A stretch of 39,200 nt of DNA from Komagataeibacter europaeus LMG 18890. Lineage in GTDB: Bacteria > Pseudomonadota > Alphaproteobacteria > Acetobacterales > Acetobacteraceae. The stretch covers positions 1 to 39,200 of the forward strand of contig NZ_CADP01000024.1 in assembly GCF_000285295.1 (NCBI RefSeq), given 5' to 3'. The notes beneath the pieces are model-generated. The model saw only the letters and a list, made by a program, of their open reading frames with translations. It was not told the DNA's origin and ran no database searches. Each line of letters starts with the position of its first letter. The stretch's first letter is position 1. This document shows positions 5,877 to 33,139 of the stretch, one piece after another. Both the position numbers and the translations under genes were made by a program.

Positions 5877-6257
5877 ATGTTGCGTGAATATGGGGGAAAG
5901 CCCCTTGTGGAATGGCTCGTGCTGCTGTTGGGCATAGTCATTTTTCTTGTTGGTCTGGTGTTTGTCGCTGGCGGGGCCGAACTGGCGCTGCTGGGTGGTT
6001 CCCTTTACTATCTGCTTTGTGGCCTTGTCCTGCTTGCCAGCGGACTGTGCATGTTGATGGGGCGCCTGCAGGGGGCGCTCCTTTATCTTGTGGCCCTCGC
6101 CTATACATGGGTCTGGTCCGTGTGGGAGATCGGGTTCAGCCCGATTGACCTCCTGCCCCGCGCCTTTGGCCCGACCCTGCTCGCCCTGCCTGTCCTTTTC
6201 TCCATTCCTGTCCTGCGGCGGATGGCCGCACGTCGCGCCATCGGGGGCACATGCTGA
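5877..6257 (+). CDS. sldB: Polyol (sorbitol/glycerol) dehydrogenase small membrane subunit SldB
   Basis: This 126-residue hydrophobic protein has four likely membrane helices, including WLVLLLGIVIFLVGLVFV and ALLYLVALAYTWVWSVW. It corresponds to the N-terminal membrane domain of PQQ glucose dehydrogenase, made as a separate subunit. In Gluconobacter, SldB has this length and lies just before sldA. It anchors the large subunit to the periplasmic face of the inner membrane and is needed for its activity and for electron transfer to ubiquinone. The stop overlaps the sldA start by 7 bases. The start at 5877 is preceded by AAAAGGC. Confidence 0.9.
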   Translation: MLREYGGKPLVEWLVLLLGIVIFLVGLVFVAGGAELALLGGSLYYLLCGLVLLASGLCMLMGRLQGALLYLVALAYTWVWSVWEIGFSPIDLLPRAFGPTLLALPVLFSIPVLRRMAARRAIGGTC

Positions 6258-8473
6258 TGCGCTGGTATCGTTTCCTCGCCATCGGCATGGGGGCCGCATG
6301 GCTGTGCCTGCCGGTATCATCACACGCACAGTTTGCCGCCGCAGGGTCTGGCGGGCCACCGGGCGCATCCATTCCGGGGCCGGGCCGGGCCGATGAACCG
6401 GCGGAACAGGCTCCGGCCGATCCCGGCTATTTTGCCGGTCCCTCCCCCTATGCCCCGCAGGCGCCAGGGGTAAACGCAGCGAACCTGCCCGATATTGGGA
6501 GTGTTGCCGCCGACAGCCTGCCCATCATGCTGCCACAGGCGGGTGCGGACCCGGCACCGGGCGACTGGGCCACCTATGGGCGGGATGACGCGCAGACCCG
6601 TTATTCACCTCTGGCCCAGATCACGCCGGAGAATGTCTCACACCTTCAGGTTGCCTTTACCTACCACACCGGCAGCTATCCCCGGCCAGGGCAGACGAAC
6701 AAATGGGCGGCGGAAACCACGCCGATCAAGGTGGGCGACGGGCTGTACATGTGCTCGGCGCAGAACGACATCATGAAGCTGGACCCCGCCACGGGAAAGG
6801 AAATCTGGCGGCGCAACCTTGGCGAAAAATACGAGGCCATTCCCTATACCGCCGCGTGCAAGGGGGTGACGTATTTCACATCGTCGCAGGTGCCGCAGGG
6901 CCAGCCCTGCCACAACCGGATACTCGAGGGCACGCTGGACATGCGGCTGGTGGCGGTGGATGCCGCCACGGGGGAATTCTGCCCCGGCTTCGGCCATGGC
7001 GGGCAGGTCAACCTGATGCAGGGCATGGGCGAGTCCGTTCCCGGTTTTGTCGCCATGACGGTACCACCCACCGTGGTGAACGGCGTGGTCGTGGTCAATC
7101 ATCAGGTGCTTGACGGGCAGCGCCGCTGGGCGCCCTCGGGCGTGGTGCGCGGTTATGATGCCGAAAGCGGCCGCTTTGTCTGGGCGTGGGACGTCAAACG
7201 CCCCGATGACCACGACCAGCCCACGGGTAACCGGCATTACAGCCGCGGCACCCCCAATTCCTGGGCCGCCATGACCGGGGACGATGCGCTGGGTCTGGTT
7301 TACGTGCCCACGGGCAATTCGGCGGGGGACTATTTCAGCGGCTATCGCAGTGCTGCCGAAAATGCGGTCTCCACCTCCATCGTGGCGCTCGACGTCAAGA
7401 CCGGCAGCCCGCGCTGGGTGTTCCAGACGGTACACAAGGATGTCTGGGATTACGACATGGGATCACAGGTCACCATAATGGACATGCCGGGTACCGACGG
7501 CCAGACGGTGCCCGCCATCATCGTGCCGACCAAGCGGGGGCAGACCTTCGTGCTGGACCGCCGCACCGGGCAGTCGATCCTGCCGGTGGAAGAACGCCCC
7601 GCCCCCGCTGGTGACGTGGCAGGCGACACCCGCGCGTCCACCCAGCCGTGGTCGGTCGGCATGCCATCGCTGCATATGCCGGACCTACGGGAGAAGGACA
7701 TGTGGGGTATGTCCCCCATCGACCAGCTTTACTGCCGCATCAAGTTCCGTCGTGCCCATTACATGGGTGAGTTCACGCCCCCCAGCCTGGACAGGCCGTG
7801 GATCATGTATCCCGGCAATAACGGGGGCAGCGACTGGGGATCGATGGCCTATGACCCGCAGACCGGCATCCTGATCGCGAACTGGAATGCATCACCGATG
7901 TATGCCCAGTTGATCACCCGCAACAAGGCAGATGCGCTGAACCTCATGCCGATCGACGACCCGCATTACCACCCCGGCGCGGGGGCAGCGGAAGGCAATG
8001 GCCCGATGGAGGGCACGCCCTACGCCATCACCATCGCCCCGTTCTGGGACCCGTTCACGCGCATGCTGTGCCACAAACCGCCCTATGGCATGATTACCGC
8101 GATTGACATGAAGCACGGCCAGAAAGTGCTGTGGCAGCACCCGCTGGGCACGGCGCGCGCCAACGGGCCGTGGGGCCTGCCGACCGGCCTGCCGTGGGAG
8201 ATCGGCACGCCCAACAATGGCGGCGCGGTGGTTACGGCGGGCGGGCTGGTGTTCATCGGTGCTGCGACGGACAACCTGATCCGCGCGATTGACGAACGCA
8301 CCGGCAAGGTCCTGTGGTCCCATGTACTGCCCGGCGGCGGACAGGCCAACCCGATGACATATGAGGTCAACGGACGGCAGTATGTGGCGATCATGGCGGG
8401 CGGCCATCACTTCATGATGACGCCGGTGACGGACGAGTTGGTGGTCTTCGCCCTGCCACAGGCGGCACAATAG
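6251..8473 (+). CDS. sldA: PQQ-dependent polyol (sorbitol/glycerol/arabitol) dehydrogenase large subunit SldA
   Basis: This 740-residue quinoprotein has the length of Gluconobacter SldA. A signal peptide (cleavage likely after SHA, residue 26) is followed by a PYAPQAPGVNAANLPDI stretch that I recall from SldA. The beta-propeller then starts at GDWATYGRDDAQTRYSPL, with repeats such as WAAETTPIKVGDGLY, TGSPRWVFQTVHKDVWDYD and GLVFIGAATDNLIRAIDERTG. The enzyme oxidises polyols (glycerol to dihydroxyacetone, sorbitol to sorbose or fructose, arabitol to xylulose, erythritol to erythrulose) in the periplasm and passes electrons to quinone. Membrane attachment comes from SldB. Ordinary glucose dehydrogenase is unlikely because that has its helices in the same chain. 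PQQ and Ca2+ would be cofactors; pqq genes are not in the window. Confidence 0.92.
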   Translation: MLMRWYRFLAIGMGAAWLCLPVSSHAQFAAAGSGGPPGASIPGPGRADEPAEQAPADPGYFAGPSPYAPQAPGVNAANLPDIGSVAADSLPIMLPQAGADPAPGDWATYGRDDAQTRYSPLAQITPENVSHLQVAFTYHTGSYPRPGQTNKWAAETTPIKVGDGLYMCSAQNDIMKLDPATGKEIWRRNLGEKYEAIPYTAACKGVTYFTSSQVPQGQPCHNRILEGTLDMRLVAVDAATGEFCPGFGHGGQVNLMQGMGESVPGFVAMTVPPTVVNGVVVVNHQVLDGQRRWAPSGVVRGYDAESGRFVWAWDVKRPDDHDQPTGNRHYSRGTPNSWAAMTGDDALGLVYVPTGNSAGDYFSGYRSAAENAVSTSIVALDVKTGSPRWVFQTVHKDVWDYDMGSQVTIMDMPGTDGQTVPAIIVPTKRGQTFVLDRRTGQSILPVEERPAPAGDVAGDTRASTQPWSVGMPSLHMPDLREKDMWGMSPIDQLYCRIKFRRAHYMGEFTPPSLDRPWIMYPGNNGGSDWGSMAYDPQTGILIANWNASPMYAQLITRNKADALNLMPIDDPHYHPGAGAAEGNGPMEGTPYAITIAPFWDPFTRMLCHKPPYGMITAIDMKHGQKVLWQHPLGTARANGPWGLPTGLPWEIGTPNNGGAVVTAGGLVFIGAATDNLIRAIDERTGKVLWSHVLPGGGQANPMTYEVNGRQYVAIMAGGHHFMMTPVTDELVVFALPQAAQ

Positions 8474-22373: not shown

Positions 22374-22398
22374 TGATCCGGGCTACAGTAAAAAGCAG

Positions 22399-22479
22399 CT
22401 TCTGGTGAGGATTTTTTCAAAAAGCTTCGAAGAATGCCGCCTTTTTCGATCAAAAGGCGGCACCCGAAAACCTTTATTT
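22399..22479. repeat. Twin-hairpin repeat, copy 1 (bidirectional terminator)
   Basis: This is one of three related elements of about 78 bp. The strong hairpin is GCCGCCTTTT (22436-22445), loop TCGATC, AAAAGGCGGC (22452-22461). A second, decayed hairpin around CAAAAAGCTTCGAAG precedes it. It lies between the convergent hydrolase and transaldolase genes and has T runs on both sides, so it probably ends both transcripts. Confidence 0.75.
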
Positions 22480-22482
22480 TTT

Positions 22483-23637
22483 TCAATGTGGCTTCAGGCT
22501 TGATATCTTCGTGGATATACTGTCGCGCAGGACATGAAAGGCTTCCTCAAACGCGCCCAGCCCTTCATGCAGCAGGGCCTCCGTCACCCCGCCCAGATCA
22601 AGCCCCAGCCGGTCCGCCTCATGCAGCACCCGTTCCGCGCCCGGCATATCCCGTGTCAGCGTCGGGGCCACCGTGCCGTGGTCGCGAAAGGCTGCGAATG
22701 TAGCCGGTGGGATGGTATTGACCGTCTCGGGCCCGATCAGCGCATCGACATACAGCACATCGCTGTAAGCAGGGTCTTTCGTGCCGGTCGAGGCCCAGAG
22801 CAGGCGCTGGGGCTGCGCGCCAAGGGCCGCCAACTTCCGCCATCGCGCACTCTGTGTCACCTCCCGCCAGTATTGATAGGCCATCCTGGCATTGGCGATG
22901 GCGACCTTGCCACGCAGGTTTTCCAGCGCCCCTGCTTCCGGATCCGCTGCCGCCACCCGCGCGTCGATTGCCGCATCGATACGGGCATCAATGCGGCTGA
23001 CGAAAAAGGACGCGACCGAGGCGATGCCCGATACCGGCAGACCCTGCGCATGCCGCGCCTCCAGCCCGGCCATGTAGGCATCCAGCACCTTCTTGTATGC
23101 CTCAAGCGAGAACAGCAGCGTCACATTGACATTCATGCCATCCGCGATCGCGGTTCGCACGGCCTCTCCCCCTTCCTGCGTGCCGGGGATCTTGATCATG
23201 AGGTTGGGCGCGTCGACCCGTTTCCATAAATGCCGTGCCTCGGCCAGTGTGCCGATGGCATCATGCGCCAGATGGGGCGAAACCTCGAGGCTGACATACC
23301 CGTCAATATGCCTGCTGGCTTCATAGACGGGGTACAGCACTCTGGCTGCGGCCTGTATGTCCTCCACCGCCAGAATTTCATATAGGGCTGCCGCGTCGAC
23401 TGTCCGTTCGGCCAGCACCTGCCGGATGCGGGCGTCATATTCACTGCCCTGCCCGATGGCCTTCTGGAAGATGGCGGGATTGGAGGTCACGCCCTTCAGC
23501 CCGTCCTGATCCACCAGCCGTTTCAGGCTGCCGTTTTCGGTAAAGGAACGCTGGATGAAGTCCAGCCACGGCGACTGGCCAAGGCTGGCCAGTGCGCATA
23601 ATGGATTGGTCAGGGTCATGCTGTGGAGTTCGTTCAT
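22483..23637 (-). CDS. tal: Transaldolase
   Basis: This is a 384-residue cytoplasmic transaldolase. It transfers a dihydroxyacetone unit between sedoheptulose 7-phosphate and glyceraldehyde 3-phosphate, giving erythrose 4-phosphate and fructose 6-phosphate. Key features are SLKRLVDQDGLKGVTSNPAI near the start, NLMIKIPGT with the Schiff-base Lys149, and NVTLLFSLEAYKKVLDAYM. The length fits the long bacterial transaldolases, without a fused glucose-6-phosphate isomerase. It begins 27 bp after the transketolase stop. Its position as the last gene of the polyol operon suggests that erythrose 4-phosphate made by the operon is processed at once. Confidence 0.93.
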   Translation of the reverse strand: MNELHSMTLTNPLCALASLGQSPWLDFIQRSFTENGSLKRLVDQDGLKGVTSNPAIFQKAIGQGSEYDARIRQVLAERTVDAAALYEILAVEDIQAAARVLYPVYEASRHIDGYVSLEVSPHLAHDAIGTLAEARHLWKRVDAPNLMIKIPGTQEGGEAVRTAIADGMNVNVTLLFSLEAYKKVLDAYMAGLEARHAQGLPVSGIASVASFFVSRIDARIDAAIDARVAAADPEAGALENLRGKVAIANARMAYQYWREVTQSARWRKLAALGAQPQRLLWASTGTKDPAYSDVLYVDALIGPETVNTIPPATFAAFRDHGTVAPTLTRDMPGAERVLHEADRLGLDLGGVTEALLHEGLGAFEEAFHVLRDSISTKISSLKPH

Positions 23638-23664
23638 GATCTGTGTTTCCGGCTCTTCATGGGG

Positions 23665-25767
23665 TCAGGCGCGCGCGATCTGCCACCTTGCCGCGGCAAG
23701 GACAGTGGCCACGGTAAAGCCGAATTTTTCCTGCAACGCTTCCGCCGGGGCGGATGCGCCAAAGCCATGCATCACCACGGCCTCGCCCGTCAGGCCGATA
23801 TAGCGCGCCCACCCCATGCCGGATGCCTGTTCCACCGCCACGCGGGCAGTGACATCGGGCGGCAGCACGCTGTTGCGGTAGGCTTCGGGCTGGGCCTCGA
23901 ACAGATCCCATGACGGCATGGAAACGACACGAACGCTGATACCTTCCTTTTTCAGGATTTCATACGCCGCTACCACAAGGGAGACCTCGCTACCCGTCGC
24001 CATCAGGATCAGGTCCGGCTTGCCGCCGCAATCGGCCAGGACATAGGCCCCTTTCGCCAGTCCCGTGGCGGGGGCGTAAACGCTGCGGTCCAGTGTTGGC
24101 AGGTTCTGGCGGCTGAGCACCAGCACGGCGGGGCGATCGGTCATGGGGATGATGACCCGCCAGGCTTCCGCCACCTCGTTCGCATCGGCTGGGCGGATCA
24201 GGGTCACGCCGGGGGTGGCGCGCAGCTGGGCCAGCTGCTCGATGGGCTGGTGGGTGGGGCCGTCCTCGCCCACGCTTATGGAATCATGGGTGAAAATATA
24301 AAGGACCGGCAGGTTCATCAGTGCCGACATGCGGATTGGCGGCTTCATGTAATCGGAAAAGATAAGGAAGCCGGAGCAGAACGGCCGAAGACCCGCCAGC
24401 GCAATCCCGTTGCAGATCGACCCCATGGCATGTTCGCGCACGCCAAAATGCACATTGCGCCCGCCATAGGTCCTGCCCCATTGCGGCGGCTGGAAATCAC
24501 CCGCGCCCGCAAATGTCAGGTGGGTCTTGGTGGAAGGCGACAGGTCGGCCGAACCACCGATCATCCATGGATAATTCTGCGCAACCGCGTTGAGCACCAT
24601 GCCCGAACTGGCGCGGGAGGCCACACCTTTTGCATTCGCATCAAAGGTCGGGATGCCACCATCCCACCCGACCGGCAGCGTGCCGTTGATGATGGCCGTA
24701 ACCTCGGCCCCAAGGTCGGGATGGGCCTGAAGGTAGGCAGCAAACAGCGCCTGCCACCGTGCGCTGGCCGCAGCCCCGCGTGCATCCAGCCCGGACTGGA
24801 AATGCGCCAGCACGCCGTCAGGTACGTAAAAGCTGCGGTCTTCCGGCCAGCCGTAGAATTTCTTGGTCTCGCGGATTTCTTCCACGCCCAGCGGCTCGCC
24901 GTGGGCGGATGCCGTGCCCGCCTTGTGCGGCGCGCCCCAGCCGATAATGGAGTGGACGATGATCAGCGTGGGCCGCGAGGTCTCGGCCTTCGCATCGGCC
25001 AGCAGGCGTTCAAGATCGCCCGTGTCGTTGGCATCCATCAGTTCCAGCACGTGCCAGCCATAACCCTCGAAGCGCCGACGCACGTTTTCGGTAAACGCGA
25101 TGTCGGTCGAGCCTTCGATGGAAATCCGGTTGCTGTCATAAATCCATGTCAGGTTGCCCAGTTTCAGGTGGCCCGCGATGGATGCGGCCTCGCTCGCCAC
25201 CCCTTCCATCATGTCGCCATCACCGCACAGCGTGTAGATATGGTAGTCAAACAGGTCGAAGCCGGGGCGGTTGTAGCGCGCCGCCAGCCATTTTTCCGCC
25301 ATCGCCATGCCGACCGAATTGCCACATCCCTGCCCCAGCGGCCCGGTTGTGGTCTCCACGCCCGTGGTGTGGCGGTATTCCGGGTGGCCCGGAGTCCTTG
25401 AGCCAAGCTGGCGGAACTGCTCCAGATCCCCCAGCGTCAGGGCTGGCGCATCCGTCACCCGGCCCGCCTGCACATCGCGCACGCCCGCCAGATGGATCAG
25501 GGAGTAAAGCAGCATCGAGGCATGCCCGATGGAGAGCACAAAGCGGTCGCGGTTGGGCCAGAGCGGGTTGGCCGGGTCGTAATTCATGACATTGCGCCAC
25601 AGGGCATAGGCACAGGGTGCCAGCGCCATCGCAGTGCCGGGATGGCCGGAATTCGCCTTCTGCACGCCGTCCATGGACAGAGTGCGGATGGTGTTGATGC
25701 AGAGCTGGTCGATACTGGCGCTGGCGTGGCCGCCCCCATCGGGGGCAGCAGGGACTATGTGGCGCAT
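23665..25767 (-). CDS. tkt: Transketolase
   Basis: This is a 700-residue thiamine-diphosphate enzyme of the pentose phosphate pathway. Visible are SGHPGTAMALAPCAYALW near the N-terminus, the cofactor motif GDGDMMEGVASEAASIAGHL, HDSISVGEDGPTHQPIEQL, and the C-terminal domain (LSRQNLPTLDR, MATGSEVSL). The start is taken at MRHIVPAAP (25767), where similarity begins; a frame opening at 25884 would include the repeat upstream. It transfers two-carbon units, for example between xylulose 5-phosphate and erythrose 4-phosphate. The gap to the upstream SDR (135 bp) holds a hairpin repeat that may lower or separate its expression. Confidence 0.95.
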   Translation of the reverse strand: MRHIVPAAPDGGGHASASIDQLCINTIRTLSMDGVQKANSGHPGTAMALAPCAYALWRNVMNYDPANPLWPNRDRFVLSIGHASMLLYSLIHLAGVRDVQAGRVTDAPALTLGDLEQFRQLGSRTPGHPEYRHTTGVETTTGPLGQGCGNSVGMAMAEKWLAARYNRPGFDLFDYHIYTLCGDGDMMEGVASEAASIAGHLKLGNLTWIYDSNRISIEGSTDIAFTENVRRRFEGYGWHVLELMDANDTGDLERLLADAKAETSRPTLIIVHSIIGWGAPHKAGTASAHGEPLGVEEIRETKKFYGWPEDRSFYVPDGVLAHFQSGLDARGAAASARWQALFAAYLQAHPDLGAEVTAIINGTLPVGWDGGIPTFDANAKGVASRASSGMVLNAVAQNYPWMIGGSADLSPSTKTHLTFAGAGDFQPPQWGRTYGGRNVHFGVREHAMGSICNGIALAGLRPFCSGFLIFSDYMKPPIRMSALMNLPVLYIFTHDSISVGEDGPTHQPIEQLAQLRATPGVTLIRPADANEVAEAWRVIIPMTDRPAVLVLSRQNLPTLDRSVYAPATGLAKGAYVLADCGGKPDLILMATGSEVSLVVAAYEILKKEGISVRVVSMPSWDLFEAQPEAYRNSVLPPDVTARVAVEQASGMGWARYIGLTGEAVVMHGFGASAPAEALQEKFGFTVATVLAAARWQIARA

Positions 25768-25812
25768 CTCGTGCGGTTTTCCTGCGTTTTTAAGTATTGT
25801 TGAGAAAAATGA

Positions 25813-25892
25813 TAAAAGTTTTTGGAGACCGCCTTTTTTCAAAAGGCGGCGTTCCCTGAAGCTTTTTGAAAAAAGCTTCACCAAAAACTTTC
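25813..25892. repeat. Twin-hairpin repeat, copy 2
   Basis: Outer arms AAAGTTTTTGG (25815-25825) and CCAAAAACTTT (25881-25891) are exactly inverted. Between them lie two hairpins: CCGCCTTTTTTCAAAAGGCGG and GAAGCTTTTTGAAAAAAGCTTC. The element sits between the SDR stop and the transketolase start in one transcription direction, so it may attenuate the operon. Confidence 0.8.
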
Positions 25893-25902
25893 TTTTGACT
25901 GT

Positions 25903-26658
25903 TCAGCGGATTGTATAGCCGCCATCCACCACCAGGTTTTCACCATTCACCATGGCGGCGGCATTGCTGACCAGATAGGCGACGGCGCAGGCAATCTCGT
26001 CTGGCTGGGCAAAGCGGCCTGTTGGCACCTGCGCGCGGAAGGCATCGCCCACTGCCCCGGCCCAGACCTGCTTGCCCAGTTCCGTCTCGACCACGGTGGG
26101 GGAGATGGCGTTGACCGTAACCCCTGATGGTCCCCATTCAAACGCCAGTACCTTGGTCAGGCCCAGAATGCCAGCCTTGCTCGCGCTATAGGCGGCATGC
26201 TTGTCCAGGGCCACAAGGGCTGCCTGTGATGCGATGTTCACGATCCGCCCGAAGCCCTTCGTGCACATGGCCGGGCCAAGGGCGCGGGCAAACAGGAAGG
26301 GCGCGCGCAGGTTGATCGCCATGGTCAGGTCCCATGCGGACGTTTCCAGTTCAGCCGCTGATGCGATCAGGGCGATGCCAGCGTTATTGACCAGAATATC
26401 GACATGCCCCAACTGGGACAGGATGGTGCGGCAGGCCGTCGCGATCGCGGCCTCATCCGTAACATCGGTATGCACGCCACAATGCTGGCTACCCAGGCTG
26501 GCCGCGATTTCGGCCACCTTTTCATTACGGTCAACCAGGCAGACCACGGCCCCCTGCCCCGCAAGCCGCCGGGCAATGGCCAGGCCAATGCCGGATGCCC
26601 CGCCGGTCACGACGGCAGTACGGCCCGCAAGGCTGAGGAGTTCACTGAACGGTTTCAT
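25903..26658 (-). CDS. SDR polyol dehydrogenase (D-threitol/arabitol dehydrogenase-like)
   Basis: This is a 251-residue classical SDR: TGGASGIG, NNAGIAL, IASQAALVALDKHAAYSASK with Tyr-x3-Lys, and a C-terminal VNGENLVVDGGYTIR. VDRNE after the second strand, with an Asp, indicates NAD(H). Sequence style and position match the SDR D-threitol and related polyol dehydrogenases, which oxidise a polyol to the 2-ketose. Within this operon it lies after the polyol permease, so its substrate is probably what the permease imports. Choosing between threitol, erythritol, ribitol and arabitol is not possible from sequence alone. Confidence 0.85.
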   Translation of the reverse strand: MKPFSELLSLAGRTAVVTGGASGIGLAIARRLAGQGAVVCLVDRNEKVAEIAASLGSQHCGVHTDVTDEAAIATACRTILSQLGHVDILVNNAGIALIASAAELETSAWDLTMAINLRAPFLFARALGPAMCTKGFGRIVNIASQAALVALDKHAAYSASKAGILGLTKVLAFEWGPSGVTVNAISPTVVETELGKQVWAGAVGDAFRAQVPTGRFAQPDEIACAVAYLVSNAAAMVNGENLVVDGGYTIR

Positions 26659-26696
26659 TTTATTATTTCCGTCTATGTTTTTATTTATGGTCAGGT

Positions 26697-28046
26697 TTAT
26701 TTACTTCTGGCCACGGCCCGTCGGGAACTGTCCAGTTCCGCCTGAAGCACCGGGTCCAGTGTCAGGAACCACGCAAGGCAGGCGCTCAGCAGGTAGATGC
26801 CCGCATAGATGCACATGACGCCGAAGATGCCAAAGCCTGGTTCAAAGAGGTAGACGACAGCAGGCCCGATCCACACACTCGCCCCGGCCCCAAGGTTGAG
26901 CAGCGACATCGCGGCCGGTTTGTCATCGGGTGCCAGGTAGGGCATCAGCGCCGAAAGCGGCACGTAAGCGGCCAACGTCATACCATACAGCGCCCCGGCC
27001 AGCAGCGTGGGCAGCATGTGCCCCGGCCCGAAATGGGTGGGGCACCAGTACAGCAGCAGCGTGCTGATGGCCGACCCCACGCCGCCCCCCAGCATGACCG
27101 TGCCGCGCCAGCTCAGCCAGTCGCTCAGTATGCCGAACAGGAGGTTCCAGATCACGTTGGAGATGAAAATGGCCTGCAGCACCAGCAGCCACTGCCCCAG
27201 GCTGAAATGCAGGTCGTGCATGAAATACAGCGGCAGGCAGACCAGAAAGCCGAATTCAGCCGAGGTATCAATAGCCCGGACAATACAGCCCAGACCAACC
27301 TTGGGCCGTTCCCACGCAATGGACAGCGAGGCGAACAGGGTTTGTAGCGGGTGCCTGTCCGCACTGGCGGCATGGAGATTGCCGTGTGTTTCCCGAATGC
27401 CGCCCAGCGCCATGATCCCGCCAAGCATCACAAGGCCAAGTGCGAGCCACAGCGTTGCGATCGGGCCGATATGGGGAATGGTGTAACGGGCAAATACGGA
27501 GCCAAGTGTTGGCATGCCGCCGGTAAAGCAGAACCAGAACCACCCGACGGCGGAACCCAGCCTGCCAGGATTGACCGTTGTCACCACCCAGACCAGGAAG
27601 CCGAACGCGAAAAGCGGATACCCAAATCCCCGGATGCCATACAACAGGAGCATGAGCGGGTAGGACCGCGCAGGCAGCGCCAGCAGCAGGAAGCCGACCT
27701 GCAACACCCCCCAGATCGAAAGCCCGATCAGCATGACCCGCCGCGCCCCCCACAGGTCGGACAGCGCACCGGACAGCCACGCCGCAACCGCAGCACTCAG
27801 CCCGTAGATGGTGAACAACAGGGCCACGTCATGTTCGCTAAACCCCATGCTGACAAGGTAGGGGGAGAGATAGCCGCTCTCCACCCCATCGCCCGTCATG
27901 AAGATCAGGACCCCGGCAAACCCCCATGCCAGTGCGGGGGGCATGCCAATGCGGGAAAGGAACCGGCCAAGGGCCGTGCGCGGTCTTTCCTCGTGCGGTA
28001 TTTCATCCTCGACCCGCATGGGGTCGAGCAGGACTGTCTGGGCCAT
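26697..28046 (-). CDS. MFS transporter, polyol permease family
   Basis: This is a 449-residue, 12-helix transporter. It contains FMTGDGVESGYLSPYLVSMG, WLSGALSDLWGARRVMLIGL (the loop 2-3 MFS motif) and LLLYGIRGFGYPLFAFGFLV. The last is typical of the DalT/RbtT (arabitol/ribitol) permease family. Start ATG 28046 is preceded by GGAGGG; an ATG at 28061 lies before that site. It imports a polyol or ketose by proton symport. It lies between the kinase and dehydrogenase genes, supporting uptake followed by oxidation and phosphorylation. Confidence 0.88.
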   Translation of the reverse strand: MAQTVLLDPMRVEDEIPHEERPRTALGRFLSRIGMPPALAWGFAGVLIFMTGDGVESGYLSPYLVSMGFSEHDVALLFTIYGLSAAVAAWLSGALSDLWGARRVMLIGLSIWGVLQVGFLLLALPARSYPLMLLLYGIRGFGYPLFAFGFLVWVVTTVNPGRLGSAVGWFWFCFTGGMPTLGSVFARYTIPHIGPIATLWLALGLVMLGGIMALGGIRETHGNLHAASADRHPLQTLFASLSIAWERPKVGLGCIVRAIDTSAEFGFLVCLPLYFMHDLHFSLGQWLLVLQAIFISNVIWNLLFGILSDWLSWRGTVMLGGGVGSAISTLLLYWCPTHFGPGHMLPTLLAGALYGMTLAAYVPLSALMPYLAPDDKPAAMSLLNLGAGASVWIGPAVVYLFEPGFGIFGVMCIYAGIYLLSACLAWFLTLDPVLQAELDSSRRAVARSK

Positions 28047-28189
28047 GGTACCCTCCAACATCGCGGATGGCGCAATGTGGGCGCGCTCTTTCCGCAGAAG
28101 GTGTTATTATTGTTATTGCAGGGATGGTGGTGCCCATGGCCGCAGATGATGACCATGGGGAGGTAATGATTACGCCCGTGCGGGCATTT

Positions 28190-29962
28190 TCAGGCTTCGG
28201 CAATAGCGGACAGGCTGGCCGCCATGGTTTGCAGGATCAGGCAGCACGACGTGGCCCCCGCATCCAGCACGCCACGGGAGCGCTCACCCAGCCTGCTGGC
28301 CCGGCCGATGCGCGCCACCAGGTCACGGGTTGAATCACGCCCCTGTTCCGCAGCCGCCGACATGGCGGCAAGTGCGGGCTTCAGCCCCTGCCCTTCCGCC
28401 GCGTGATAGGCCTTGACGGCTGGCACGAGCGTGTCCATCAGCGTCTTGTCGCCTACATCGGCATTACCCAGCGAGCGGATGCCCGCTTCCGCCCCGTCCA
28501 GCATCAGGCCGAACAGGTGGGCGTCGATACAGGTGACACCTGCCAGCGGCTTCGCCAGCCCTTCAAAAAACCGCCCGTAAAGCGGTCCCATCGAGCCACC
28601 AATGCCAGCCATGAGCGAATCCGAAAGCGCTCGCAACCCGCCTTCCATCGTGGGCGGCGCATCGCCCAGCGCCTGACCACAGCGGGCAAAGCCCTTGGCC
28701 ATGTTGATGCCGTGGTCGCCATCACCGATCTTGCCATCGATCTCGCTCAGCCAGTCACGCGCCCCGACAATGGCACTGACCAGGGCGGGCACGACCGTGC
28801 GCGTGTTCCCGACCGCGATCCCCGATGTCGGGATGTAGCGTTCGGTTTCTGCTGTTGCCGCATGGGCGGCAAGGTCATGCGCGCTCGCACCCGGTGCCTC
28901 GGCTGCGGGTTCTTCGGGCGTATCGCCAACACGGGTCAGGCCAATGGCATGGGCGGGATGGGACATGAGCCGGTCCAGTTCCGCATCCAGCTTCATGACC
29001 GTCAGCGTCACCCCCTTCATGTCCAGGGACGTAAACAGGTTGCCGACGAAGTTGTGGCGGATGGTGATGCCGCGTTCGCGCATGATGTCAGCGATATCGG
29101 CAAACAGCACGTAAAGCTCAATGACCGGCGTGGCGCCAAGGCCGGATACCAGTACCGTCACCTCATCTCCCGCCCCGAACGGCAGGTCGGGCAGGATATG
29201 GTTGCACATCATCCGCGCGATCTCGCGCGACGAACCCAGTTTGCTGATCTCCACCCCCGGTTCGCCATGATGGCCGATGCCGACTTCCATCGTCCCGGCC
29301 TCGATCATGAAATTGGGGTGGCCGTTGGCGACAATGGTACACGGTGAAAGGCCAACACCGATCGAACGCGTATTGTCGATGGCCTTGCGGGCGGTCGCCA
29401 GCACGTCCTCCAGGGAAGCCCCTTCCTCCGCACGGGCACCGGCGGCCTTCCACATCAGGATTTCGCCCGCGACACCGCGTCTGCGGGCCGCGTCATCTTT
29501 CGGGGCCGAGGCCACATCGTCATTGGCGACCACCGTGCCCACGGCAATTCCCTCGCGCGTTGCATCATCCACGGCCAGACGGACATTCATGGTGTCGCCC
29601 GCGTAATTGCCGAACAGGCAGGCGACCCCCGCGCCGTTATCCGCCTCACGCATCGCATCAAGGAAACTGGCCGCCGTGGGAGAGGAAAAGATTTCCCCGA
29701 TCGCCACCGCATCCAGCATGCCCCTGCCCACATAGCCAAGGAATGCCGGTTCGTGGCCGGAGCCGCCGCCGGTAATCACACCGACCTTGCGCACCGCACT
29801 CTTGCACGCACGGCGCAGGACACGCGGGTTTTTCGTGCCCGCCAGGATATCGGGATGCGCCAGCAGGTAGCCGCGGATTCCGTCTTCAACGATCTGGTCG
29901 GGATCATTGAAGATACGGTCCAGCGGGCGTGCGGCACGCAGGTGAATGTCGATGGTATTCAT
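28190..29962 (-). CDS. DhaK-DhaL fused ketose kinase (dihydroxyacetone/D-erythrulose kinase)
   Basis: This is a 590-residue ATP-dependent kinase. The DhaK domain (1-330) has GGGSGHEPAF (65-74) and GNYAGD (118-123), then MEVGIGHHGEPG with the His (232) that binds the substrate carbonyl covalently. After a linker (350-370), the DhaL domain holds GKIGDGDHG (410-418), which binds ADP and Mg. ATP-dependent single-chain enzymes of this kind phosphorylate dihydroxyacetone, glyceraldehyde or erythrulose. The neighbours (polyol SDR, EryI/DerI-like isomerase, transketolase, transaldolase) make D-erythrulose the better guess. If the substrate were dihydroxyacetone, no isomerase of this type would be needed. 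The ATG at 29962 is used; a frame to 29992 lacks a good site. First gene of the operon. Confidence 0.88.
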   Translation of the reverse strand: MNTIDIHLRAARPLDRIFNDPDQIVEDGIRGYLLAHPDILAGTKNPRVLRRACKSAVRKVGVITGGGSGHEPAFLGYVGRGMLDAVAIGEIFSSPTAASFLDAMREADNGAGVACLFGNYAGDTMNVRLAVDDATREGIAVGTVVANDDVASAPKDDAARRRGVAGEILMWKAAGARAEEGASLEDVLATARKAIDNTRSIGVGLSPCTIVANGHPNFMIEAGTMEVGIGHHGEPGVEISKLGSSREIARMMCNHILPDLPFGAGDEVTVLVSGLGATPVIELYVLFADIADIMRERGITIRHNFVGNLFTSLDMKGVTLTVMKLDAELDRLMSHPAHAIGLTRVGDTPEEPAAEAPGASAHDLAAHAATAETERYIPTSGIAVGNTRTVVPALVSAIVGARDWLSEIDGKIGDGDHGINMAKGFARCGQALGDAPPTMEGGLRALSDSLMAGIGGSMGPLYGRFFEGLAKPLAGVTCIDAHLFGLMLDGAEAGIRSLGNADVGDKTLMDTLVPAVKAYHAAEGQGLKPALAAMSAAAEQGRDSTRDLVARIGRASRLGERSRGVLDAGATSCCLILQTMAASLSAIAEA

Positions 29963-30300
29963 GGAACTTTCCCGTCTTTCCTCGTGCGACATTGGGCCGC
30001 CTTGTTGTTTTTGGTCCAGCTTCCGGAACTTTTGTAATTCTTCCGGAACACCTGTTTACGCGGAATCGTAGAACGAAAGCATCTCGCATAAGCTATAACG
30101 CCTTTAACGCACATATTTCTGGCGTTTTCATATCACTATAACGTGATAAAGGCAGATATATCCGGTTTACAAAGGTTATTATAATTGTCGTTTGTGCCGT
30201 TTAGTTATCTTTTGTGCGGCGCACAACGCAAAACCTCTGCAACAGGAACACCGCCGGGCGTCCTTCGCTCCACGGATGCCCGGATAAAAGGATACACATC
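29963..30300. promoter_or_regulatory. Divergent promoter and operators of the kinase operon and isomerase/SorC genes
   Basis: This 338-bp region holds several symmetric motifs. TTCCGGAA occurs twice, within CTTCCGGAAC at 30020-30029 and 30040-30049, exactly 20 bp apart. TATCAC-TATAAC-GTGATA is a perfect dyad (30131-30148). TTGTGC-GGC-GCACAA is a perfect dyad (30212-30226), and its half site TTTGTGC also lies at 30191, again 20 bp apart. SorC proteins bind as tetramers to paired dyads, which fits this spacing. The rpiB-like gene has AAAGGA before its ATG. Confidence 0.6.
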
Positions 30301-30750
30301 ATGGATATCGCCATTGGCTGCGACGAAGCAGCATTCACCCTGAAGGAAACCATCCGTGATTTCCTTACAGCGGAAGGCCATGCCATTACCGATTACGGTA
30401 CATATGACGGCGCGCCGGTCCTCTATCCCGACATTGCCGTCACCGTGGCTGAAGCCATCAAGGCCGGAAAGCACGAACGCGGCATCCTTCTGTGCGGGAC
30501 GGGAATCGGGGTCGCCATCAGCGCCAACAAGGTTCATGGCATCCGCGCCGCCCAGACACACGACACCTATTCCGCCGAGCGGGCCATGAAGAGCAATAAC
30601 GCCCAGATCATTACATTGGGCGCGCGCGTAATCGGCCCCGAACTTGCCAAAACGATCGTGAAAGCGTACCTCTCATCGGAGTTTCCCGGCGGCCCGTCAG
30701 CCGAAAAGATCAGCCGCATTGCCTATTACGAGGAACGCCTCCCTGTCTGA
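30301..30750 (+). CDS. RpiB-fold isomerase, probably D-erythrulose-4-phosphate isomerase (EryI/DerI-like)
   Basis: This is a 149-residue enzyme of the RpiB/LacAB fold. Common features are CGTGIG with Cys65, SANKVHGIRAA, and the ALGARVIG-type strand near the C-terminus. Two family positions differ from classical ribose-5-phosphate isomerase B. The usual GSDHAGF is GCDEAAF (Glu9 for His), and the HNDAN segment is SNNAQ (Ser98 for His). This pattern, with THDTYSAERAMKSNN, is what I recall from EryI of Brucella and DerI of Mycobacterium, which convert D-erythrulose 4-phosphate to D-erythrose 4-phosphate. Divergent from the kinase operon; the SorC gene overlaps its end. Confidence 0.85.
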   Translation: MDIAIGCDEAAFTLKETIRDFLTAEGHAITDYGTYDGAPVLYPDIAVTVAEAIKAGKHERGILLCGTGIGVAISANKVHGIRAAQTHDTYSAERAMKSNNAQIITLGARVIGPELAKTIVKAYLSSEFPGGPSAEKISRIAYYEERLPV

Positions 30751-31807
30751 CAATCCGCGTAAAACACCCCGCACGGCATCGTCCGAACGCCCACGGCGGC
30801 GGTCAGGATCGCGCGATGCCGTGCAGGCCGCGCCAGATGCAAAACCCGGTGGACGTACGGAAGTCACGCTGGATCAGGTAACGGAAATCGCGGCTCTCTA
30901 TTACCTTGAGCAGGTGACACAGGAAGACCTGTCCAGGCGGTTTTCCATGTCGCGCCCGACCATCAGCAAACTGCTCAAGCGCGCGCGCGAAGAAGGCATT
31001 GTCGATATCCGTGTACGCGCCCGCCCGGCCGCCGCGGCCGCACTTGAGCAGGAATTCCAGCGCCGCTTTGGTATTGCCCGACTGCTGACGGCAGTGGACC
31101 AGCGCGACCAGGACGCCCAGCGTGACAGCGTGGCCGCCATCGTCGCCATGCATCTCGACAGCATCTTGCAAGACGAGATGATCATTGCCGTGGGCATGGG
31201 CCGTAATATCGCAGCCATCGCCAGCCATATCGGCATGCCCGTGACCCGCGCCATTACCTTTGTCTCCGCCATTGGCGGGTCTATGCGCGCGGGCGAGCAT
31301 ATGAGTTCGGACCACATATGCCGCCGCCTTGCTGCGCGGTTTGGGGGCGAGAGCGAGACGCTGTATGCCCCGGCCCTGGTGGCCGATGCACAGATGCGCC
31401 GCGCGCTGATGGCCAATGACGTCGTGCAGCATACGCTGAACCGGGCGCGGCGCGCCGATATCGCCCTGATCGGCATTGGCGATGTCAATGAAGACAGCAA
31501 CATGGTGCGCATGGGCTGGTTTTCCCCCGCCGAAATCGCGGCCTCGAAACTTGCAGGCGCGATTGGCGACATGATGGGGTATGATTTCATCACGATTGCA
31601 GGCAAGCCGGCCGACGTGCCCATGCAGGGGCGTGTCATCGGTCTTTCGCTTGACGAGTTGCGGCGCATCCCCAATGTCATCGCCATTGCATCGGAAAGCA
31701 CGAAGATCGTCGCCATCCTGGCCGCCCTGCGCACGGGCACCATCACCACGCTGGCCACGACCGAAGCCAATGCCCGCACCATCCTGGAACTGGATGCCAC
31801 GGCATAA
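30719..31807 (+). CDS. SorC-family sugar-responsive transcriptional regulator
   Basis: This protein has up to 362 residues. A helix-turn-helix (EIAALYYLEQVTQEDLSRRF, then RPTISKLLKRAREEGIVDI) is followed by the sugar-phosphate-binding SorC domain (VGMGRNIAAIA, GGSMRAGEHMSSDHICRRLA, GDVNEDSNMVRMGWFSPAE). SorC proteins bind sugars or their phosphates and control catabolic operons. The TTG at 30719 gives a start inside the isomerase gene; a GTG at 30821 would give a 328-residue protein and is equally possible. It follows the isomerase directly and is divergent from the kinase operon, which it most likely controls together with itself. Confidence 0.9.
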   Translation: MPITRNASLSDNPRKTPRTASSERPRRRSGSRDAVQAAPDAKPGGRTEVTLDQVTEIAALYYLEQVTQEDLSRRFSMSRPTISKLLKRAREEGIVDIRVRARPAAAAALEQEFQRRFGIARLLTAVDQRDQDAQRDSVAAIVAMHLDSILQDEMIIAVGMGRNIAAIASHIGMPVTRAITFVSAIGGSMRAGEHMSSDHICRRLAARFGGESETLYAPALVADAQMRRALMANDVVQHTLNRARRADIALIGIGDVNEDSNMVRMGWFSPAEIAASKLAGAIGDMMGYDFITIAGKPADVPMQGRVIGLSLDELRRIPNVIAIASESTKIVAILAALRTGTITTLATTEANARTILELDATA

Positions 31808-31828
31808 GGAAATGGAATGAAAGTTTTT

Positions 31829-32871
31829 CCCGCGTATCAACAAGACAGTACGGCCTTACCGGGCGTATTTTGCCATCCCATATGGAGTTGAGTGGCTGGA
31901 GTTCTGGTGATGTTGAAAGTCATGAAGGGTCTGACAGACGTTGAGTTCGAGCGTTTCTAGAGCACGGAAGAAGCCTATATCGCGGCGTTGGTGATGCCGC
32001 GTCGGAAGGCATTGATGACCTGCCCGTCCTGCGGCCACGAGCGGAATTACCTCTGTGGTCGTCGGGTGGGGTGCACACGCTGCAACCGTCGCTGGTCGGT
32101 CACGGCCGGCACGGTGATGAGCAGCACGAAACTTCTGCTCACGATCTGGTTTCGGGCCATGCACATCATGACCAGCACCAAACAGGGTGCCTCGGCCATC
32201 GAACTGGGCCGTCGGCTGGGCGTGAGCTATCCGACGGCGTGGTATCTTGCCAAACGCCTGCGCCGCGCCATGACCGAACGTGAAACCCGTTATCTTCTCG
32301 GTGGTTCAGGTCCGGACGGTGCCCCCGCCGTGGTCGAGGCAGACGATGTTTATCTGGGAGGCGAGCGAAACCAGAGCTCGGGTCCGCGAGGCAAGACCAG
32401 GATGATCGCAGCAACCGAGCGGTATGAAGAGGGTCGTATGGGCCATGTCACCATGCGGATGGTGGCCGGCTTCACCAGCAGGGCGGTGCGGGCATTCGCC
32501 GATATCTGCCTGACGGCAACCGTCAGGGTTCATACCGATGGCCTGAAGGCTTTTCTGGCTTTCGGCACATCTGTGCGATCCCATGTGGTCACTGTCAGCG
32601 GCAGCAGACGCCCCTCCCGCCAGCGCACCGCGCCGTTCCACGGCCTCAATACCGCCATCGCCAATCTGAGCACGGCCCTCAAGGCAACGCACAAGGCCAT
32701 CGCCCCGCAGCACACATCCGATTATCTCGGCGCTTTCTGCTGGACCACAAATCGAAGGCACAACATGCCCGGCATGATCCACGCCGCATGCCGTGCCATA
32801 GCAACCTCTTCAATCCTTACCCGCCATCGCACATACGACGAAATTCCCGTGCTGCTTGATTGATAAGCGGG
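31829..32871 (+). mobile_element. IS1595-family insertion sequence, about 1043 bp
   Basis: The ends are inverted repeats: left CCCGCGTATCAACAAG, and the right end read inward CCCGCTTATCAATCAAG. They are flanked by nearly identical octamers AAGTTTTT (31821-31828) and AAATTTTT (32873-32880), consistent with the 8-bp target duplication of this family. The flanks are the first bases of the twin-hairpin repeat, so the element inserted into that repeat, just after the SorC gene. Confidence 0.75.
31910..32863 (+). pseudogene. IS1595-family transposase with early amber stop
   Basis: The reading frame starts near 31910-31922 (MKGLTDVEFERF) but meets TAG at 31958-31960. It then continues in the same frame with STEEAYIAAL, the zinc-ribbon CPSCGH with CTRCNRRWSVTAGTVM, a helix-turn-helix (ELGRRLGVSYPTAWYLAKRL), and the ISXO2-like catalytic domain (VEADDVYLGGE, VHTDGLKAF, YLGAFCWTTNRR). 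A start at the ATG at 31994 or GTG at 31988 would give about 290 residues without the first 25. The nonsense codon probably lowers or abolishes activity. The rest is intact. Confidence 0.8.
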
Positions 32872-32950
32872 AAAATTTTTGGGTGCCGCCTTTTTTTAAA
32901 AAAGCGGCGTTCTTCGAAGCTTTTTGAAAAAAGCTTCACCAAAAACTTCC
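32871..32950. repeat. Twin-hairpin repeat, copy 3 (split by IS1595)
   Basis: It contains GGGTGCCGCCTTTTTTT with its arm AAAAAAGCGGC, then GAAGCTTTTTGAAAAAAGCTTC, and the outer arm CCAAAAACTTCC. The first bases of the repeat (GAAAGTTTTT at 31819-31828) remain on the other side of the IS1595 element. Before insertion it lay directly after the SorC stop, like a terminator. Confidence 0.75.
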
Positions 32951-33139
32951 TTCCGGTTTGCCGCCCGTTTTACAGGGGGCTGGCCCTGATTTTCGGGCGC
33001 AATCTGCTACCCGAAAAAACCGGGCGCGTCATATAAAATCCGACGTAAAAAACGCATGACTGTGATTACCGACAAACGCTGGTCTTTCCCCCTGCACATC
33101 CATATCTGCGCGTGAACAATTTTTTCGTGAGCAATCTGG

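Follow-up and report, generated by a model that had tools for sequence, protein, structure and literature searches.

A divergent operon in Komagataeibacter, with its own transketolase and transaldolase, proposed to convert a four-carbon polyol or ketose into erythrose 4-phosphate

Gene content and layout of the locus

We analysed a stretch of 39,200 nucleotides from Komagataeibacter europaeus LMG 18890 (contig NZ_CADP01000024.1; hereafter the window, in which all positions are counted), which belongs to a genome assembly of 4.23 Mb in 321 contigs. A divergent locus of seven genes lies at positions 22483-31807 of the window (Table 1). On its minus strand, in the order of transcription, are the genes for a kinase of the dihydroxyacetone kinase family (DAK), a permease of the major facilitator superfamily (MFS), a short-chain dehydrogenase (SDR), a transketolase (TKT) and a transaldolase (TAL), and on its plus strand are those for an RpiB-fold isomerase and a SorC-type regulator. 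An earlier reading of the same letters, made without database searches (the original prediction), had assigned these seven families, and all are present where it had placed them; the intergenic gaps of 27 to about 145 bp that it described were computed as 27 bp (TAL-TKT), 135 bp (TKT-SDR), 38 bp (SDR-MFS) and 128 bp (MFS-DAK). Judging from gene families, active-site residues and the settings of related genes, we consider it probable, at roughly 0.7, that the locus is a SorC-controlled operon for the catabolism of a four-carbon (C4) polyol or ketose, yielding erythrose 4-phosphate (E4P).

The operon TAL resembles the corresponding domain of the tal-pgi fusion and is without the PGI domain. The longest open reading frame (ORF) of the TKT gene opens with a TTG at 25884, inside an intergenic repeat. 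Because full-length housekeeping TKT homologues align only from residue 32-46 of this longer frame onward, the ATG at 25767 is probably the start and the TTG probably is not.

Table 1. Features of the operon and its surroundings in the window (paired scores are score/cutoff)
Feature	Position	Strand	Evidence or occurrence
Transaldolase (TAL), 384 aa	22483..23637	-	NCBIfam PRK03343 470.5/367 bits; TIGR00876 316/234 bits
Transketolase (TKT), 700 aa	23665..25767 (ATG)	-	TIGR00232 822/682 bits
SDR, GolD/DthD family; proposed tetritol dehydrogenase	25903..26658	-	NF005309 341/286 bits
MFS polyol permease, RbtT/DalT/CsbX family	26697..28061	-	TIGR00897 506.5/375 bits
Two-domain DAK kinase (DhaK+DhaL), GHHGEPG clade; proposed D-erythrulose 4-kinase	28190..29992	-	PRK14479 595/492 bits
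RpiB-fold isomerase, Glu9/Cys65/Ser98; proposed D-erythrulose-4-phosphate isomerase	30301..30750	+	residues, PF02502
SorC/DeoR-type sugar-binding regulator, start uncertain	30719..31807	+	PF04198 233.9 bits
Palindrome TATCAC-N6-GTGATA, candidate regulator site	30131..30148		TCAC-N6-GTGA kept in 6/6 aligned intergenic regions
Direct TTTGTG repeats ~20 bp apart, candidate regulator site	30191..30216	+	in all 6 intergenic regions aligned; L022 and L023 with one degenerate half
Dispersed palindromic repeat copy, SDR-TKT gap	25795..25897	-	same position in L022, L023, L024
Repeat copy just past TAL gene end	22391..22483	+	also L022; not found there in L023, L024
Repeat copy right of operon	32872..32952		dispersed hairpin repeat

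The isomerase active site

The window isomerase is the sole PF02502 gene found in its own genome. It has Asp8-Glu9 at its N-terminus, keeps the catalytic Cys65 and carries Ser98 in place of the ring-opening His, so that the features of ribose-5-phosphate isomerase B (the DH motif and the ring-opening His, His102 in C. thermocellum) are missing from it. We aligned 53 hand-chosen rows (50 loci, the window and two PDB chains). The three canonical references, E. coli RpiB, C. thermocellum 3he8 and S. medicae RpiB, have the N-terminal Asp-His and the ring-opening His. In the other 50, among them the window protein, the Asp precedes Glu, Asp or Ser, and a Ser stands at the ring-opening position; 49 of these 50 match a strict form of the motif and one a looser form. 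In a tree that contains several long rows and few references, a single branch (98/98) separates the 50 from the three. The isomerase, which had been called EryI/DerI-like, indeed has active-site residues of the DerI/EryI type and not of the RpiB type. The clustering with classical RpiB that would have counted against the original prediction was not seen in this tree with its few references. A canonical ribose-5-phosphate isomerase was rejected on these residues and on the tree, even though the family cutoff for RpiB is just reached (see below).

Since neither E4P nor erythrulose 4-phosphate can form a furanose ring, loss of the ring-opening His fits such substrates, and the Ser-for-His active site suggests a tetrulose-type enzyme. 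An isomerase from Shinella shares the Ser signature and passes the model of the D-erythrulose-4-phosphate isomerase DerI (NF051858, 253.8/240); its gene lies in an operon with an FGGY kinase, a glycerol-3-phosphate dehydrogenase, a TIM-barrel protein, a regulator and a triosephosphate isomerase (TIM), an order that presumably fits that of the ery genes. Two published RpiB studies bear on the replaced residue (papers are cited here by PMC number). The structure of C. immitis RpiB has the same His-to-Ser change, and its authors suspect shorter-chain substrates (PMC3212906). In Leishmania RpiB, the H102N substitution abolishes activity (PMC4783025). The C. immitis protein, PDB 3qd5, is named RpiB but has Ser for His like the window isomerase, and in the tree it stands with one Arthrobacter and one Ameyamaea row; it may be a fungal erythrulose-4-phosphate isomerase.

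The kinase and its neighbourhoods

In a set of 120 DhaK rows, from which L045-L047, L052 and L053 (numbered loci of the comparison) had been left out as duplicates, 98 rows have the motif GHHGE and the other 22, including the second DAK of the window genome, have I/V-HGE. A tree of 56 of these rows places the GHHGE group on one side of a branch (100/100). The window kinase passes the DAK subfamily model PRK14479 (Table 1) and belongs to this separate clade.

The neighbours of this kinase are in keeping with C4 substrates. They were counted anywhere in the examined DNA of 80 named loci, the best 80 of 560 relatives, a set that is rich in Pseudomonas, includes three Komagataeibacter and holds 21 loci shorter than 19 kb. 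An RpiB-fold gene is present in 66, a SorC gene in 47, a strong SDR in 48 and a Zn-dehydrogenase in 45. In Ameyamaea (L026), a 73% kinase orthologue stands beside an FGGY kinase, a GlpD-like protein, a TIM, an ATP-binding cassette (ABC) transporter and a GolD/DthD SDR (342/286 bits). In Swaminathania and Asaia the kinase orthologue is followed by a Zn-dehydrogenase, and in most Pseudomonas loci the kinase occurs with an ABC transporter, an SDR and a Zn-dehydrogenase, the RpiB-fold gene and SorC lying opposite. A 324-aa protein of Ameyamaea (L026:11030-12001) was considered as EryC-like and dropped, as it matched no Pfam or NCBIfam family.

Membership of the DAK family could also indicate the use of dihydroxyacetone (DHA) in a cycle similar to the xylulose-monophosphate one, where the kinase would form dihydroxyacetone phosphate, TKT would act as or with a DHA synthase, and the isomerase and TAL would regenerate the acceptor; we take the set of DAK, TKT, TAL and RpiB to resemble the enzyme list of that cycle. 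However, the kinase misses the dak_ATP cutoff (TIGR02361, 354.6/574.95; the second DAK of the genome, at 481.3, is also below it), the TKT groups with housekeeping transketolases of its own genus (100/99), and the isomerase and the SDR would be superfluous for DHA. We therefore give a DHA cycle only a very slim chance, no search having been aimed at genes for formaldehyde or methanol.

Two other gene sets were encountered among the DAK loci. On plasmids of Hyphomicrobiales and Rhodobacterales, a fusion of a sugar-binding regulator to a DhaK domain lies beside other DhaK/DhaL genes (L043:4149-6236, L188:11410-13479, L189:10437-12524). In three Comamonadaceae loci (L061, L062, L120), a DAK of the same clade and an RpiB-fold gene accompany a xylose-isomerase-like TIM-barrel protein and a transketolase split into two genes, with an additional gene in L061 that is near but below the L-threonate dehydrogenase cutoff; these sets perhaps represent another C4 pathway.

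The proposed pathway and its alternatives

According to our proposal, the permease would import a tetritol, with D-threitol as the first choice, or the ketose D-erythrulose. The SDR would oxidise the tetritol to D-erythrulose, which the DAK kinase would phosphorylate to D-erythrulose 4-phosphate and the RpiB-fold enzyme would isomerise to D-erythrose 4-phosphate. The dedicated TAL would then convert E4P and fructose 6-phosphate (F6P) into sedoheptulose 7-phosphate and glyceraldehyde 3-phosphate (GAP), from which the dedicated TKT, running backward, would form ribose 5-phosphate (R5P) and xylulose 5-phosphate, the latter reacting with a second E4P on TKT to give F6P and GAP. By these well-known TAL and TKT reactions, the net result would be the conversion of 2 E4P into R5P and GAP with F6P as a carrier, for which TAL and TKT alone would suffice. 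In Brucella, erythritol-derived E4P is reported to enter via Tal and two Tkt reactions, and the importance of Tal is supported by the failure of a tal/fba double mutant to grow on erythritol (PMC11508834). The outline of the original prediction, a tetritol or erythrulose route to E4P that is drained by TKT and TAL, is supported by the residues and tree of the isomerase, the contexts of the kinase and the GolD/DthD family of the SDR; the substrate and its stereochemistry remain proposals.

Several observations weigh against this pathway. The window isomerase scores narrowly above the rpiB equivalog cutoff (TIGR01120, 143.6/138.65; E. coli RpiB scores 255.7) and below that of the Rhizobiales DerI model (NF051858, 172.6/240). 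The H11N mutation of Leishmania RpiB changed the kinetics little (PMC4783025), and Glu9 is therefore weak evidence. The permease family is named for ribitol and arabitol. The DAKs found with FGGY, GlpD-like, TIM and RpiB genes in clusters of other Komagataeibacter (L030, L032, L033) have no GHHGE, so that this motif is not required for an erythritol-type setting. Gluconacetobacter asukensis and G. takamatsuzukensis have the arrangement SorC-RpiB/DAK-MFS-SDR and lack both TKT and TAL in the examined DNA (in G. asukensis the gene after the SDR is on the opposite strand), and no TKT or TAL above 250 bits occurs in 67 of the 80 named loci, short ones included. Finally, L-erythrulose is a reported product of erythritol in acetic acid bacteria (PMC9171043); a route through it would need a TIM of the LerI type, and the window genome has a single TIM.

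The permease family, the score above the rpiB cutoff, and a TKT and TAL that would be equally fitting could all be accommodated by a pentitol pathway. In such a pathway the permease and SDR would take ribitol, arabitol or xylitol, the kinase would form a pentulose 5-phosphate, the isomerase would interconvert ribulose 5-phosphate and R5P, and TKT and TAL would do ordinary pentose-phosphate work. However, the kinase of the operon is a DAK and no FGGY kinase is present, the ring-opening His is replaced by Ser while R5P is a furanose, RpiA is present in all 19 genomes of the genus, and orthologues of the kinase occur in erythritol-type clusters. The dihydroxyacetone and pentitol pathways had been named as the closest alternatives to the tetritol route; given Ser98, the housekeeping type of the TKT and the absence of an FGGY kinase, we judge both unlikely, the pentitol pathway retaining a small chance.

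Within the C4 reading, the D series is favoured because the single TIM leaves the window genome without a step for L-erythrulose 1-phosphate, which requires a TIM-type isomerase (PMC10733421). One TIM gene only is likewise found in each of the three relatives that bear the operon, and two are found in each of the 8 relatives whose RpiB-fold gene lies in the other cluster described below. Genes of the EryA (FGGY), EryB (GlpD-like) and EryH (TIM) types are absent from the operon, FGGY and GlpD not having been searched for genome-wide. A different C4 entry, by meso-erythritol, L-erythrulose or a tetrose, with the SDR acting on another tetritol or reductively, would be in keeping with the breadth of the GolD/DthD model, the Zn-dehydrogenase seen in 45 of the 80 kinase-clade loci and the L-erythrulose made by acetic acid bacteria; in view of the TIM counts we hold it to be rather unlikely, though deserving of more weight than the pentitol or DHA pathways. 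D-threitol or D-erythrulose is the first-choice substrate among the C4 options, with a chance a little better than even.

Conservation in the genus and the insertion site

The seven genes recur in unchanged order in 3 of 18 other Komagataeibacter genomes, those of K. swingsii, K. rhaeticus and K. melomenusus (4 of 19 with the window genome). The operon is therefore not a product of chance, which answers the comparison of gene order among relatives that the original prediction had called for. All seven genes are under purifying selection, with ratios of nonsynonymous to synonymous substitution (dN/dS) of 0.03-0.18 in each of the comparisons with these three species.

RpiB-fold genes are found in 12 of the 19 genomes, one in each and always with a DAK gene no more than a few kb away: four lie in the operon described here and eight in another DAK cluster with a second TIM nearby, seven genomes having none. 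The genes of this other cluster were examined directly in three genomes (L030, L032, L033) and deduced in the remaining five from the positions of the DAK, TIM and RpiB genes. The two kinds of cluster were never found in one and the same genome.

The hydrolase and EamA genes that flank the operon adjoin directly, with no operon between them, in loci of six relatives (L242-L247), one of which, genome G015, has the operon at another place. The hydrolase gene was not seen within the 1.5 kb examined at L239, L241 and L249, and L248 has only a fragment of it. Either insertion at this site or loss from it may have occurred. A recent plasmid origin was rejected, as a near-identity search of a plasmid collection gave no record in which a single place accounted for 80% of the query. 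Between SorC and EamA lies an element of the IS1595 type (31808-32880) with a transposase gene at 31988-32863 (Pfam, 61 bits) and imperfect inverted arms at 31820-31853 and 32847-32880; it is absent at the corresponding place in K. swingsii.

Origin of the dedicated transketolase and transaldolase

The TKT/TAL pair of the operon is additional to the one or two housekeeping sets of tkt and tal-pgi-like genes that the genus carries. In a TKT tree of 56 rows, the TKTs of the four operons form the sister group of 26 housekeeping Komagataeibacter rows (100/99), which suggests that the operon TKT arose long ago by duplication of the housekeeping enzyme within the lineage. The TAL tree, which includes the window sequence as row L125, places the operon TALs among Acetobacteraceae TALs on a branch of their own (94/99) whose exact sister is not resolved. 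TKT and TAL genes lying ~4 kb from a tetritol-type operon in genomes G352 and G420 were considered as a source and rejected, being each genome's only TKT found and grouping elsewhere in the tree.

A dispersed hairpin repeat, with at least 46 match rows in the window genome (40 scored of 241 first-look candidates), has a copy at the SDR-TKT junction in all four Komagataeibacter operons. The window segment 25768-25902, which spans this junction, folds at -37.8 kcal/mol (z -4.25). One may speculate that tkt-tal was captured at this repeat.

Transketolase and transaldolase in equivalent clusters of other bacteria

A plasmid of Sphaerotilus sulfidivorans encodes, after the kinase, a TKT-TAL fusion of 1031 aa (L042:6401-9493, minus strand; 925 bits with TIGR00232, 433 bits with PRK03343), with the RpiB-fold gene and SorC divergent from it; this layout recurs in S. 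hippei and Ideonella livida (L081 and L085, also with a fusion). The PLSDB table lists no gene at the place of the fusion ORF in L042. On the Klebsiella plasmid pCAV1042-183, tkt-tal-RpiB are divergent from Zn-dehydrogenase-MFS-DhaK-DhaL-SorC. A full-query copy of this cluster (99.8%) was found in one of 5,426 E. coli genomes, and at least 80% of the query is covered in five plasmid records, its own included. A tal gene in the corresponding place is present on one Salmonella plasmid and in two Serratia loci, and tkt-tal in S. bockelmannii; in Klebsiella and S. bockelmannii the TALs are of the TalA/B class and the TKTs group with E. coli TktA. In Pseudomonas gingeri G9001 and Pseudomonas sp. 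dw_612, a TalA/B-type gene adjoins RpiB. As a separate observation, the (tkt-)tal-RpiB / dehydrogenase-MFS-DhaK-DhaL-SorC cluster occurs on plasmids of Klebsiella, E. coli, Raoultella and Salmonella (L187:2637-11839, L186:3926-11711), and the Klebsiella and Salmonella records examined were typed as conjugative.

A TKT or TAL scoring more than 250 bits is present in 13 of the 80 named loci. Among 14 loci with a DAK that has no GHHGE there is none, only two weak partial TKT matches in a single locus; the 80 are not a random sample, and the 14, which include erythritol-type clusters, are not lineage-matched to them. Within the 13, the TKTs of L093 and L105, ~7-8 kb past the kinase, are probably unrelated, and L057, with a TAL ~3 kb away behind a gene on the opposite strand, is doubtful. 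In a random sample, the kinase was found at E≤1e-110 in 9 of 398 Pseudomonadota genomes, that of the window included. Among the neighbourhoods of seven of the eight others (G097 left out), a full TKT/TAL was nearby only in G352 and G420, as their single housekeeping set, and G364 had weak partial TKT matches at one of three DAK places.

Three sources of TKT/TAL, namely Acetobacteraceae, the Sphaerotilaceae fusion and Enterobacterales, are clear from the classes of TAL and the tree of TKTs. Because descent differs between the in-lineage duplicate, the fusion and the enterobacterial pair, TKT/TAL were probably recruited to DAK and RpiB sets at least three times. According to the original prediction, this arrangement is not known to have been described in acetic acid bacteria. 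It is present there, yet it is not confined to them, as equivalents occur in Sphaerotilus, Ideonella and Serratia and on enterobacterial plasmids. No erythrulose or threitol operon with its own TKT/TAL appeared in the titles and abstract beginnings among the literature matches listed, most subscription journals being outside the coverage. The unusual part of the operon is the dedicated TKT and TAL, making this a pathway variant and not a new kind of pathway.

These recruitments invite a broader speculation, to which we give even odds. The clearance of E4P would limit the catabolism of C4 sugars, and a private TAL-TKT pair would have been wired repeatedly into DAK/RpiB tetrulose operons, giving a self-contained module that converts 2 E4P into R5P and GAP. 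In Komagataeibacter this would be an old housekeeping duplicate joined at the hairpin repeat, in Sphaerotilaceae a fusion, and on Serratia chromosomes and Klebsiella-type plasmids an enterobacterial pair.

Candidate regulatory sites and a neighbouring gene

The intergenic regions between kinase and isomerase were aligned for four Komagataeibacter and two Gluconacetobacter. Either the palindrome or the TTTGTG repeats (Table 1) could be bound by SorC. Elsewhere in the window, at 6251-8473, lies a gene for a pyrroloquinoline quinone (PQQ)-dependent alcohol/glucose dehydrogenase (710 bits).

Significance and comparison with known systems

An RpiB-fold protein that has the catalytic Cys, carries Ser in place of the ring-opening His and is encoded beside a DAK gene offers a sequence-level lead by which likely enzymes of erythrulose phosphates could be recognised where the annotation reads ribose-5-phosphate isomerase B or dihydroxyacetone kinase. 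Recruitment of TKT and TAL on separate occasions amounts to a testable claim on a flux bottleneck during growth on C4 sugars. Both matters are relevant to erythritol metabolism, to the supply of E4P for aromatic compounds and to synthetic formaldehyde routes that pass through erythrulose phosphates (PMC10733421).

Of the described pathways, the proposal can first be set beside that for D-threitol in Mycobacterium smegmatis, with DthD, DerK and DerI, reportedly described by Huang et al. in 2015. That pathway combines an SDR, a DAK-family kinase and an RpiB-fold isomerase to reach E4P, as is proposed for the operon, and in both a D-series route would need no TIM-type isomerase. The operon differs in having an MFS permease, SorC and a dedicated TKT and TAL, and the two are likened by enzyme family and not by orthology. 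The mycobacterial pathway is cited in PMC12780249 and PMC10733421.

The erythritol pathway of Brucella and Rhizobium (EryA, EryB, EryC, EryH, EryI) also ends, like the proposed one, in the formation of E4P, there by EryI, which has the RpiB fold. The operon is without its FGGY kinase, GlpD-like dehydrogenase and TIM; in our proposal oxidation would precede phosphorylation, and TKT and TAL are encoded inside the operon. In Brucella, Tal and Tkt likewise act downstream (PMC11508834).

The equivalents closest in gene content are those of Klebsiella pCAV1042-183 and Serratia bockelmannii, which, like the operon, unite DhaK/DhaL, an RpiB-fold protein, an RbtT-like MFS permease, SorC, TKT and TAL in one divergent cluster. 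They differ from it in that their TKT is enterobacterial and their TAL of the TalA/B class, both genes lying beside the isomerase instead of in the kinase operon, and in a Zn-dehydrogenase that replaces the SDR in Klebsiella and accompanies it in Serratia. The clusters of Sphaerotilus and Ideonella share with the operon the DAK kinase, the divergent RpiB-fold gene and SorC, and a TKT and TAL placed directly after the kinase, but there the two enzymes form one fused protein, and the SDR and permease are absent from that operon.

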